From positions 186,001 to 250,000 of the forward strand of contig NZ_JAAATW010000004.1 in assembly GCF_009908315.1 (NCBI RefSeq): a stretch of 64,000 nucleotides of DNA, read 5' to 3'. Positions 50,540 through 54,937 of the stretch are shown piece by piece; position 1 is the first letter of the stretch, and the number at the start of each line of letters is the position of its first letter. A program made the position numbers and the translations under genes. A model generated the notes under the pieces. It made no database searches. It saw only the letters and a list, made by a program, of their open reading frames with translations, and was not told the DNA's origin. This stretch comes from Paragemmobacter ruber (lineage in GTDB: Bacteria > Pseudomonadota > Alphaproteobacteria > Rhodobacterales > Rhodobacteraceae).

Positions 50540-51517
50540 TCAGCCCCCGCCGATCAGCGCGCCGGCCGCAAAGACCAGCGCACCGCCGACGACGACCTGC
50601 AGGGCCGCGCGGAGGAAAGGGGTTTCCATGAAGCGGTTCTGGATCCATGCGATGGCCCAGAGTTCCACGAAGACCACCACCATCGCGATGATCGTGGCGG
50701 TCCAGAAATCTGGGATGAGGTAGGGCAGGGCATGGCCCATGCCGCCGACCGTCGTCATCACACCGGAGGCGAGGCCGCGTTTCAGGGGTGAGCCGCGCCC
50801 GGACAGGACGCCGTCATCATGCGCGGCCTCGGTAAAGCCCATGCTGATCCCGGCGCCGACCGATGCCGCGGTGCCGACGAGGAAGGTGGTCCAGGTGTCC
50901 TGTGTCGCGAAGGCGGTGGCGAAGATCGGCGCGAGGGTGGAGACGGAGCCATCCATCAGCCCGGCAAGCCCCGGCTGCACCCAGGTCAGGATGAACTGGC
51001 GGCGGGCGGTGCGGTCTTCGTCGCTGCGCGCGTCGTCGGTTAGGTGGCGCTCGGCCAGGTCGGTGGCTTTGCGTTCATGGCCAGCCTCGGCTGCGGCGAG
51101 ATCGCCCAGCAGCTTGCGGGTGGCGGCGTCGGTCGTGCCTTGGGCGGCGCGGGCGTAGAAGCGCTGCGCCTCTTGTTCCATGGCCGCCGCCTCGCCCCGG
51201 ATCGTGTCGAGCGGCAGGTTCCGGGCCAGCCAGACGGGTTTGCGGGCATAGTGGCCCGCCACGTGTTCGCGGCGGATGAGGGGGATCACCTCGCCAAAGC
51301 GGGTGCGGTGCAGGTCGATCAGGCGCTGTCTGTGCTGGTCTTCCTCGGCCGCCATGCCATCGAAGAGGGCGGCGGTGGCAGCAAATTCGCCGCGCAAGCG
51401 TTCGGCGTAGCTGCGGTAGATGCGGGCATCGTCTTCTTCCGACGAGATGGCGAGGGCGAGGATTTCCTGTTCCGACAGATCGGCAAAGCGGCGGCGGGTG
51501 GTCAGGCCGGGGATCAT
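50540..51517 (-). CDS. mbfA: MbfA-type membrane ferritin-like iron exporter
   Basis: A 325-residue fusion of an N-terminal rubrerythrin/erythrin-like di-iron domain (1-165) and a C-terminal VIT1/CCC1-like membrane domain (175-325). Iron-ligand motifs are ISSEEDDARIYRSYAERL and AAEEDQHRQRL (Glu59, His62) in the first helix pair, and AMEQEAQRFYARA and AAAEAGHERKA in the second. The membrane part has GLMDGSVSTLAPIFATAFAT and five helices. In rhizobia and Agrobacterium MbfA exports iron and protects against peroxide. An Irr-like inverted repeat lies 15 bases upstream of its ATG. Confidence 0.93.
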   Translation of the reverse strand: MIPGLTTRRRFADLSEQEILALAISSEEDDARIYRSYAERLRGEFAATAALFDGMAAEEDQHRQRLIDLHRTRFGEVIPLIRREHVAGHYARKPVWLARNLPLDTIRGEAAAMEQEAQRFYARAAQGTTDAATRKLLGDLAAAEAGHERKATDLAERHLTDDARSDEDRTARRQFILTWVQPGLAGLMDGSVSTLAPIFATAFATQDTWTTFLVGTAASVGAGISMGFTEAAHDDGVLSGRGSPLKRGLASGVMTTVGGMGHALPYLIPDFWTATIIAMVVVFVELWAIAWIQNRFMETPFLRAALQVVVGGALVFAAGALIGGG

Positions 51518-51531
51518 GAGCGACTCACTGG

Positions 51532-51550
51532 AATTAGAATAGTTCTAATT
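51532..51550. promoter_or_regulatory. Irr-type iron control element before mbfA
   Basis: AATTAGAA-TAG-TTCTAATT is a perfect 8-bp inverted repeat resembling the iron control element bound by Irr (TTTAGAA-N3-TTCTAAA in rhizobia). It lies between mbfA and the divergent peptide gene and probably gives repression of mbfA under low iron. Confidence 0.7.
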
Positions 51551-51584
51551 TAGAGGGCCATGCAGATTGGGCAAGGTGAAAAAT

Positions 51585-51600
51585 TGAACCGATCTGTTCA
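51585..51600. promoter_or_regulatory. TGAAC-N6-GTTCA operator 1
   Basis: TGAACCGATCTGTTCA lies about 10 bases upstream of the -35 element of the peptide promoter. Its centre is 33 bp from operator 2. Confidence 0.7.
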
Positions 51601-51608
51601 CTATTGCC

Positions 51609-51637
51609 TTGAAAAGGTGAACCGATCGGTTCATATT
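51609..51637 (+). promoter_or_regulatory. Candidate promoter of the small secreted peptide gene
   Basis: TTGAAA (51609-51614) and CATATT (51632-51637) are spaced by 17 bases, giving a start near 51644. Operator 2 occupies the spacer and operator 3 the start region. Confidence 0.55.
51618..51633. promoter_or_regulatory. TGAAC-N6-GTTCA operator 2 (perfect)
   Basis: TGAACCGATCGGTTCA is a perfect 16-bp palindrome placed between the -35 and -10 elements, where a bound TetR-type dimer would exclude RNA polymerase. The regulator gene is not in this window. Confidence 0.8.
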
Positions 51638-51643
51638 CTTGAG

Positions 51644-51659
51644 TGAACGAAACAGTTCA
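51644..51659. promoter_or_regulatory. TGAAC-N6-GTTCA operator 3
   Basis: TGAACGAAACAGTTCA keeps both TGAAC arms with a degenerate centre, covers the predicted transcription start and ends 17 bases before the ATG. Confidence 0.7.
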
Positions 51660-51676
51660 TTTCAGGAGAGAGAACG

Positions 51677-51835
51677 ATGAAGCGTCTTGCCCCCCTTGCC
51701 CTGATCCTTTCTGTCCTTGCCGGGCCGAGCCTTGCGGGAAGTTTTGGGTTTGATCTGCCGACCTTGACCTGGCCCAGCGATGGCGGGGCCGCGCCGGATG
51801 GCACCACGGTGATGGGCACGAAATCGGGCCGCTGA
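51677..51835 (+). CDS. Small secreted peptide (52 aa)
   Basis: A 52-residue protein with a textbook signal peptide (MKRLAPLALILSVLAGPSLA) and a mature part of about 32 residues beginning GSFGFDLPTLTWPSDGG. The ribosome site AGGAGAGAGAACG before ATG 51677 is the strongest in the area, and codon use is normal, so I consider it a real gene. No cysteines and no known family are seen. The upstream promoter carries three copies of one operator, implying tight repression. It could be a periplasmic stress peptide, a signal peptide product or a lost-partner protein; none is supported further. Confidence 0.75.
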   Translation: MKRLAPLALILSVLAGPSLAGSFGFDLPTLTWPSDGGAAPDGTTVMGTKSGR

Positions 51836-51843
51836 GGCGGGCG

Positions 51844-52191
51844 TCAGTCGATCGGGCGGATGAGCTTGCGTTCCAGCACGCGCAGGACGGCCGACAGGTC
51901 GTGGCCGCGGCGCAGGATCTGGCCGTCCATCCCGACGACGGCATACATCCCCTGCCGCGCGCGCAGCTTGGGGTGTTTTTCGATGCGGTAGAGCGGGTTT
52001 TCCGCCGTGCGGCGGAAGATGGCGAAGACGGCATATTCGCGCAACGTGGAGATGCCGTAATCGCGCCATTCCCCGAGCGCGACCATGCGCCCGTAGAGGG
52101 TGAGGATCAGCGACAATTCGCGCCGGTCGAAGCTGACCTGTTCGGTCAGGCGCAGGGAATTGGGGAACGGGGTCGGGGGCTGGACCGTCAT
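51844..52191 (-). CDS. DUF2794 family protein
   Basis: A 115-residue conserved alphaproteobacterial protein of unknown function, recognised as DUF2794. The core reads FDRRELSLILTLYGRMVALG and EWRDYGISTLREYAVFAIFR, then RTAENPLYRIEKHPKLRARQ. It is probably cytoplasmic. It ends 8 bases from the convergent secreted-peptide gene. Upstream lies a 234-base spacer with a candidate small RNA on the other strand, so its 5' leader would be antisense to that RNA if transcribed from far upstream. Confidence 0.88.
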   Translation of the reverse strand: MTVQPPTPFPNSLRLTEQVSFDRRELSLILTLYGRMVALGEWRDYGISTLREYAVFAIFRRTAENPLYRIEKHPKLRARQGMYAVVGMDGQILRRGHDLSAVLRVLERKLIRPID

Positions 52192-54170: not shown

Positions 54171-54198
54171 GGCCCCCGGTTCGGGGGCCTTTTCGTTT
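54171..54198 (+). terminator. Rho-independent terminator after the IalB-like gene
   Basis: GGCCCCCG-GTT-CGGGGGCC is an 8-bp perfect stem followed by TTTTCGTTT, 25 bases past the stop codon. Confidence 0.85.
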
Positions 54199-54548
54199 CA
54201 GTCGGGGGCGAGCAGGCGGGCGAGGATGCGGGCGTCATGGTCCTGCCCGCCGAAGAAGATGGCGAGGAGGCGGATCACCTGCCGGTCTTCGATTAGATCA
54301 TAGTAGAAGATGGCGCGATCCTTCGTGACGCGGCGGGTATTCTGGCCGAGTTCGGGGCAGCGGGTGCCTTGGTACGGCGCGTGGGTCAGGGCGGCGGCGG
54401 CGGCCATGATTTCTTCAAGACGCCTGTCGGCCATCGCGATGGCGCGGCTTGGTGGTTCCCCTTTGGCGATTGCGCTTTGCCTTATGAAGCGGGCGATTGA
54501 GATCAGGTCCCGTCGAATGCCGGGGACGGCGTCAAGCGTCCAGCCCAA
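54198..54548 (-). CDS. parE: RelE/ParE-family toxin
   Basis: A 116-residue small basic protein of the RelE/ParE toxin fold. The N-terminal LDAVPGIRRDLISIARFIRQ helix pair and the C-terminal TRRVTKDRAIFYYDLIEDRQ and VIRLLAIFFGGQDHDARIL strands match ParE-type toxins, which poison DNA gyrase in known cases. It overlaps the antitoxin gene by 17 bases, typical of type II toxin-antitoxin pairs. Whether it is active cannot be seen from sequence. Confidence 0.85.
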   Translation of the reverse strand: MGWTLDAVPGIRRDLISIARFIRQSAIAKGEPPSRAIAMADRRLEEIMAAAAALTHAPYQGTRCPELGQNTRRVTKDRAIFYYDLIEDRQVIRLLAIFFGGQDHDARILARLLAPD

Positions 54549-54795
54549 GATCGCCCCGATCCTTGGCGAGATCGTCTTTCACAAGACGCTCCAACTCCTC
54601 GAAGGACAACGAAGGTTCTTTCCGCCGCTGTTCCAGAAGCGCGCGCAGGGCATCGCTGGCTTCGAAATCGCGGCGGAGGAGTTCTAGGCCCTGCTGGATC
54701 ACCGCGCTGAGGCTGCTGTAGCGGCCCTCGGCGACGAGGCGGCGGGCGAAGGCATCCTGCTGGTCGGTCAGGGAGATGGAGGACTTGACGGTCAT
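54532..54795 (-). CDS. parD: ParD-like ribbon-helix-helix antitoxin
   Basis: An 87-residue antitoxin. The N-terminal VKSSISLTDQQDAFARRLVA is the ribbon-helix-helix DNA-binding part, followed by EGRYSSLSAVIQQGLELLRR, conserved in ParD. The acidic C-terminal tail (SFEELERLVKDDLAKD) would wrap the toxin. ATG 54795 has AGGG 8 bases upstream; the longer frame to 54855 lacks one. It precedes the toxin gene and should autorepress the pair. Confidence 0.85.
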   Translation of the reverse strand: MTVKSSISLTDQQDAFARRLVAEGRYSSLSAVIQQGLELLRRDFEASDALRALLEQRRKEPSLSFEELERLVKDDLAKDRGDLGLDA

Positions 54796-54937
54796 CTTGA
54801 GGCCCTTGGTCGGTGCTACTGGGTAGTATGTGCGGCGGGTGGGGGGGGTGGTCAAGGCGCGGGCGCGGGGGTGGCTTTCGTTTTTCGGGCGAATCCCCTA
54901 TATCAACGCCTTCCCGGCCTTTCAGGACAGATGACCC

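Follow-up and report, generated by a model that had tools for sequence, protein, structure and literature searches.

A cluster of three palindromes of the form TGAAC-N6-GTTCA around a single candidate promoter of Paragemmobacter ruber raises the question of which regulator binds them, and why a gene for a 52-residue peptide should be placed under its control. The cluster is located in a stretch of 64,000 nucleotides that was analysed in its entirety (named "the window"). The original prediction had attributed to it a very tight repression by a TetR-like dimer, with the peptide as the only product and with no regulator gene nearby. The features required to follow the argument are:

50540–51517, minus strand: mbfA, encoding a rubrerythrin/VIT-domain iron exporter (NCBIfam NF045676, 560.9 bits for a cut-off of 450; Pfam)
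51534–51552, minus strand: TTAGAATAGTTCTAATTTA, a sequence before mbfA which we take to resemble an Irr box
51585–51600, no strand assigned: operator 1, TGAACCGATCTGTTCA, exact TGAAC-N6-GTTCA match, 8 bp 5' of the -35 element
51609–51637, plus strand: candidate peptide promoter, TTGAAA-N17-CATATT, proposed from sequence and geometry, with an expected start only
51618–51633, no strand assigned: operator 2, TGAACCGATCGGTTCA, exact match and perfect 16-bp palindrome in the spacer between -35 and -10
51644–51659, no strand assigned: operator 3, TGAACGAAACAGTTCA, exact match spanning the expected transcription start
51664–51668, plus strand: AGGAG, probable ribosome-binding site, from sequence
51677–51835, plus strand: gene for a 52-residue peptide with an N-terminus that, by eye, resembles a signal peptide, and with the motif FDLPxLTWP
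51844–52191, minus strand: gene for a DUF2794 protein (PF10984, 135.9 bits), converging on the peptide gene

Organization of the locus

The -35 element (TTGAAA, 51609–51614) and the -10 element (CATATT, 51632–51637) are separated by a spacer of 17 bp. Operator 2 occupies this spacer and runs two bases into the -10 element, operator 3 begins 6 bp past the -10 element, and the spacing from operator 1 to operator 2 is 33 bp. Promoter-like elements, as judged by eye, are located at the equivalent position in relatives. The presence of three exact operators, the perfect palindromy of the middle one and their placement around one promoter (5' of the -35, within the spacer and over the expected start) were therefore all borne out as originally described.

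When one mismatch is allowed, the 64-kb window contains just these three sites, while shuffled windows contained 0.60 sites on average and reached three in 2 of 100 cases, in a count that took sites anywhere in the 64 kb without requiring them to cluster within 75 bp. The three palindromes are also the sole exact copies of TGAAC-N6-GTTCA in the genome of 3,955,066 bases, throughout which the same pattern read backwards, serving as a control, had 0 matches. A weight matrix, trained on sites from relatives (RND loci among them) with the window's own sites included, retrieved no further site of comparable score from the window, the next best scoring 9.9 against 23.6–27.4 for the operators.

The divergent neighbour of the peptide gene is mbfA. 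On the other side, the segment 52290–52420 is strongly structured, with a terminator-like hairpin at its end (fold of -66 kcal/mol, z -2.85), and is possibly a small RNA; Rfam returned no family for this segment, and over the whole window it identified one tRNA and nothing else. Two overlapping small open reading frames on the minus strand (54198–54855) resemble, by eye, a ParD and RelE/ParE toxin-antitoxin pair.

The peptide and the conservation of its operators

Peptide matches were obtained in 13 of 61 genomes (the own genome included), 12 of which are among the 19 genomes of the genus. Considering these matches within the genus together with dN/dS values of 0.14–0.59 over 21 pairs from seven of its genomes, the open reading frame at 51677–51835, as originally called, looks real. 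The motif of the window peptide reads FDLPTLTWP. A peptide family of 34 members was assembled from the window peptide and 33 peptides encoded at the 34 motif-found tetR loci described below (excluding L114, a locus of Cereibacter ovatus, which seems to possess the module); P28, L30 and P33 (window numbering) are common to all members, and the family consensus is LPxLTFP, then TQGC...C, the window peptide being without cysteine. None of the 34 members has a Pfam match at E ≤ 0.01, and the window peptide has none in Pfam, NCBIfam or PADLOC. Its AlphaFold model is uninformative (mean pLDDT of 64.8, with a single helix at residues 6–14). From its N-terminal sequence, the peptide is probably exported.

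Operator conservation was assessed in 40 peptide promoters, comprising 13 from the 61-genome peptide search and 27 among the best 30 loci of a family-wide search, in which sites were counted at a matrix score of at least 11. All 40, the window's included, contain at least one site (three in 21, two in 17 and one in 2), and at least two sites are thus present in 38. The triple coverage that had suggested very tight repression is lacking in the 17 promoters with two sites and in the 2 with one. The first spacing is 32–33 bp in 19 of the 21 three-site promoters and the second is 22–29 bp; counterparts of both operator 1 and operator 3, counted from the spacings, are found in 32 of the 40. With one half-site mismatch allowed, either two or three sites were retrieved at each of the 13 peptide loci of the 61-genome search, own included. 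The inner bases are biased as well in a matrix of 106 distinct exact sites, 7 of which are fully palindromic there. A site that was not conserved before orthologous peptide genes had been named as an argument against the prediction; as it is retained in 40 of 40 promoters, that argument falls away.

A TetR-family regulator accompanies the peptide gene

Among 79 peptide matches, 53 could be judged for linkage, namely those for which a TetR position was among the matches listed, and in 39 of these tetR is located 61–197 bp 3' of the peptide gene on the same strand. The remaining 14 of the 53 are without an adjoining tetR, several being signal-peptide-only matches in longer frames and others, the own genome for instance, genuine but unlinked; the 26 matches left unjudged include the four genomes without a TetR match. 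Within the genus, the linked arrangement occurs in G015 and G016 (L073 and L074), tetR is present in 12 of 12 genomes with a peptide, and 5 genomes without tetR show no peptide. Two further genomes, G003 and G007, have kept tetR, apparently beside mbfA, and have neither a peptide match nor sites there. At L086 (G018) the tetR frame changes after about residue 150, the match covering residues 6–151, and the peptide promoter keeps three sites.

The own genome encodes a single orthologue of this TetR, at C4:180602-181216 on the same contig as the window, 4.8 kb to the left of the window edge and 56.4 kb from operator 1. The statement that no regulator gene is near consequently holds within the window but not for the contig. 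The protein belongs to the TetR family and is AefR-like, with Pfam domains TetR_N (53.7 bits, cut-off 24) and TetR_C_7 (126.9 bits, cut-off 22), both of which are likewise above the gathering score in two orthologues. No operator site is present upstream of the own tetR, hence there is no sign of autoregulation in this genome and, with the gene also being unlinked, the pairing of TetR with the operators rests on orthology.

Across 394 genomes of the family, exact operator pairs were found in 30 (the own genome included; 0 in the backward control), and in many of these loci, which were read individually, a TetR gene is seen behind the peptide gene. The TetR profile matches 274 of the 394 genomes at E ≤ 1e-60 and all 30 of those with an operator pair (P = 1.1e-5, a value that ignores kinship in a set with approximately one genome per genus); no exact operator pair is present among the 120 genomes without TetR at this threshold. 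Conversely, 70 of the 74 family genomes having a peptide match also have a TetR match. The four others at 1e-60 are G210, G211, G316 and G433, two of which match the signal peptide alone, while G211 is the most credible exception.

Operators at tetR and RND adaptor genes of relatives

The weight matrix was used to score 80 named tetR loci, being the best 80 of 572 and taken from titled contigs. Of the 80 loci, 62 contain a site with a score of at least 14 in the 700 bp preceding tetR and 18 contain none (unrounded scores); two or more sites are present in 41 (rounded scores), and in 25 a site is no further than 150 bp from tetR. Outside the 700-bp upstream stretches, 0 sites were found in 431,169 bases of these loci, and the reversed control also gave 0. 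Seventy-seven of the loci share no upstream 40-mer with the training loci, and 60 of these 77 contain a site. With a looser motif, 34 of the 80 loci were found to encode the peptide, and sites are present at every one of these 34. The tetR-proximal sites often read TGAAC-N6-GTTTA and are located approximately 44 bp before tetR, a position which suggests that tetR is autoregulated in those relatives that have a proximal site. A regulator gene that carries the site, as originally expected, is thus seen in relatives but not in the own genome.

Outside the family, an upstream site (score of at least 14) was retrieved at 10 of 14 loci of more distant TetR homologues, with none of that score at L212, L214, L215 and L217. 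Two overlapping palindromes (e.g. TGAACTGAACGGTTCAGTTCA), having the same half-site in another layout, are located upstream in L204, L205, L206, L208 and L210, all from other families.

Five of the operator-pair loci precede a gene whose product was read as the membrane-fusion protein of an RND pump. The corresponding adaptor profile matches 295 of the 394 family genomes at E ≤ 1e-80, the own genome not being among them, and the best 30 loci from these 295 genomes, ranked by similarity to the site-bearing seeds, were inspected. A site (score of at least 11) lies upstream of the adaptor gene in 25 of the 30, or in 21 of 26 when the four loci already found through their operators are excluded, as compared with 5 sites elsewhere within 128,528 bases of these loci. 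In one genome (G320), sites are present at the peptide-tetR locus and also before the adaptor gene, which is followed by a long RND-like frame.

No adaptor orthologue was found in any of the 19 genomes of the window's genus at E ≤ 1e-50, an absence which is meaningful since the same profile matches 295 of the 394 family genomes; the own genome may nevertheless encode a more diverged RND pump. No operator was found at an RND pump operon of the own genome, which has no further exact site and in which no adaptor orthologue was found; TGAAC-N6-GTTTA and TAAAC-N6-GTTCA are also absent from the one-mismatch matches listed for it, and its TetR is therefore not classified here as an efflux repressor. 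The peptide stands as the only product when the own genome is judged by its sites, but not for the family, in which the operator also precedes tetR and the RND adaptor gene, and this makes the peptide a less odd target.

Comparison with known systems

The model of the TetR orthologue from L091 was compared with solved structures, of which MexL (Z 19.9), 3bhq, a protein of M. loti (Z 19.8), FrrA (Z 19.3) and NalC (Z 18.7) scored highly, with QacR (Z 17.5) not far below NalC; sequence comparison also groups TetR with MexL, 3bhq, FrrA and NalC. MexL acts at a Mex pump. The TetR described here resembles MexL, FrrA and AefR in sequence and fold, has the AefR-like TetR_C_7 domain, and has its operator at the RND adaptor gene of relatives. 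It differs from them in that the recognisable target in the own genome is a secreted-looking peptide, in that the genus is without the adaptor orthologue of the family, and in that tetR is unlinked and without a site of its own. AefR is reported to repress MexEF-OprN (PMC11915855), and FrrA adjoins FreCAB, which it may control with genistein (PMC4070704); both regulators have been linked to RND pumps and flavonoids (PMC11915855, PMC4070704).

NalC of Pseudomonas aeruginosa, which is related to the own TetR (8ke8, E 3.8e-20), controls the 53-residue ArmR, a peptide connected with an RND pump (PMC6018408). Here too a TetR regulator would control a peptide of about 50 residues, as sites and linkage read from sequence suggest. 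ArmR binds the repressor MexR, whereas the peptide in question has a signal-peptide-like N-terminus, which disfavours an antirepressor role on a MarR-type target; the likeness is meant as an analogy between the two pairs and implies no common descent of the peptides. TipR, an alphaproteobacterial repressor from Caulobacter crescentus, controls its own gene as well as an RND pump and has a small additional regulon (djlA), and TGAAC forms the end of its inverted-repeat arm TGAGAATGAAC; the TipR arm is longer than the half-site here, and no peptide is mentioned in the account consulted (PMC10754441). In the open-access literature, searched by title and start of abstract, no description of a peptide-tetR module was found, which is a weak negative.

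Alternative explanations

We consider it very probable that a single TetR repressor (TetR_N plus an AefR-like domain, gene C4:180602-181216) recognises all three palindromes as its operators and thereby controls the peptide promoter. It is highly improbable that another palindrome-binding regulator, for instance of the LexA, CRP/FNR or MarR type, occupies the sites with TetR as a mere neighbour: the half-site and the N6 spacing alone do not specify a family, tetR is unlinked in the own genome and G211 has a peptide match without TetR, yet the sites occur at tetR-linked peptide genes, at tetR itself, at the RND adaptor gene and at distant TetR homologues, and exact pairs are missing from every one of the 120 family genomes without TetR. 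The sites might instead mainly control the divergent mbfA, or both genes in an iron/peroxide defence, leaving the peptide as a bystander, and we regard this as improbable. Operator 1 is indeed just upstream of a possible opposite-strand mbfA promoter, and an mbfA motif occurs in the DNA of 53 of the 80 tetR loci, but operators 2 and 3 are placed over the promoter of the peptide gene, L011 and L012 retain peptide, sites and tetR with an apparently different upstream neighbour, and G003 and G007, without peptide or sites, still show (by eye) an Irr-like box and the mbfA start upstream of tetR. In R. sphaeroides, moreover, mbfA already belongs to the targets of Irr, which binds there (PMC3413700).

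That the palindromes work as hairpins of a leader RNA and not as DNA operators is hardly conceivable, since the leader containing operator 3, while folding at -10.3 kcal/mol, folds no better than its shuffles (z -0.87), operators 1 and 2 are upstream of the expected start, and other genes are likewise preceded by these sites. Of the original interpretation, it is the repression by a TetR-type dimer that cross-genome comparison of sequences strongly supports; the interpretation as a whole is supported in part.

Several individual binders were also considered. The alphaproteobacterial LexA site is a direct repeat, GTTC-N7-GTTC, and LexA was set aside because the sites here are palindromes with N6. 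The boxes of Irr and RirA do not fit the sites either.

Proposed mechanism and biological meaning

Under control by TetR, the geometry suggests that repressor dimers over the spacer and the start site would block RNA polymerase from the promoter, while operator 1, approximately three helical turns 5' of operator 2, probably raises occupancy and may also contact the divergent mbfA promoter. A small-molecule inducer, in analogy to flavonoids for FrrA and chlorinated phenols for NalC, would free the repressor and the peptide would be switched on. An older regulon may have comprised tetR, the peptide and the RND adaptor and pump; in the genus the pump orthologue would then have been lost and tetR relocated, the peptide promoter being left as the sole recognisable target. 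A tentative, rather unlikely proposal is that the exported peptide is the working arm of an efflux or envelope response, being made when ligand is present and either acting periplasmically or extracellularly, where it could modulate the pump or bind the toxicant, or signalling back to TetR, and that in the genus it would be the sole output after loss of the pump.

In the current work, an orphan operator was matched to its probable repressor purely by comparison, and a putative regulon that extends across many genera of one bacterial family was thereby brought to light. Its members include small and probably secreted peptides that form a family of their own, without a match to the described families searched, and that appear to be linked to an efflux-type repressor; as the module is present in relatives of laboratory species, the role of the peptide is directly testable.
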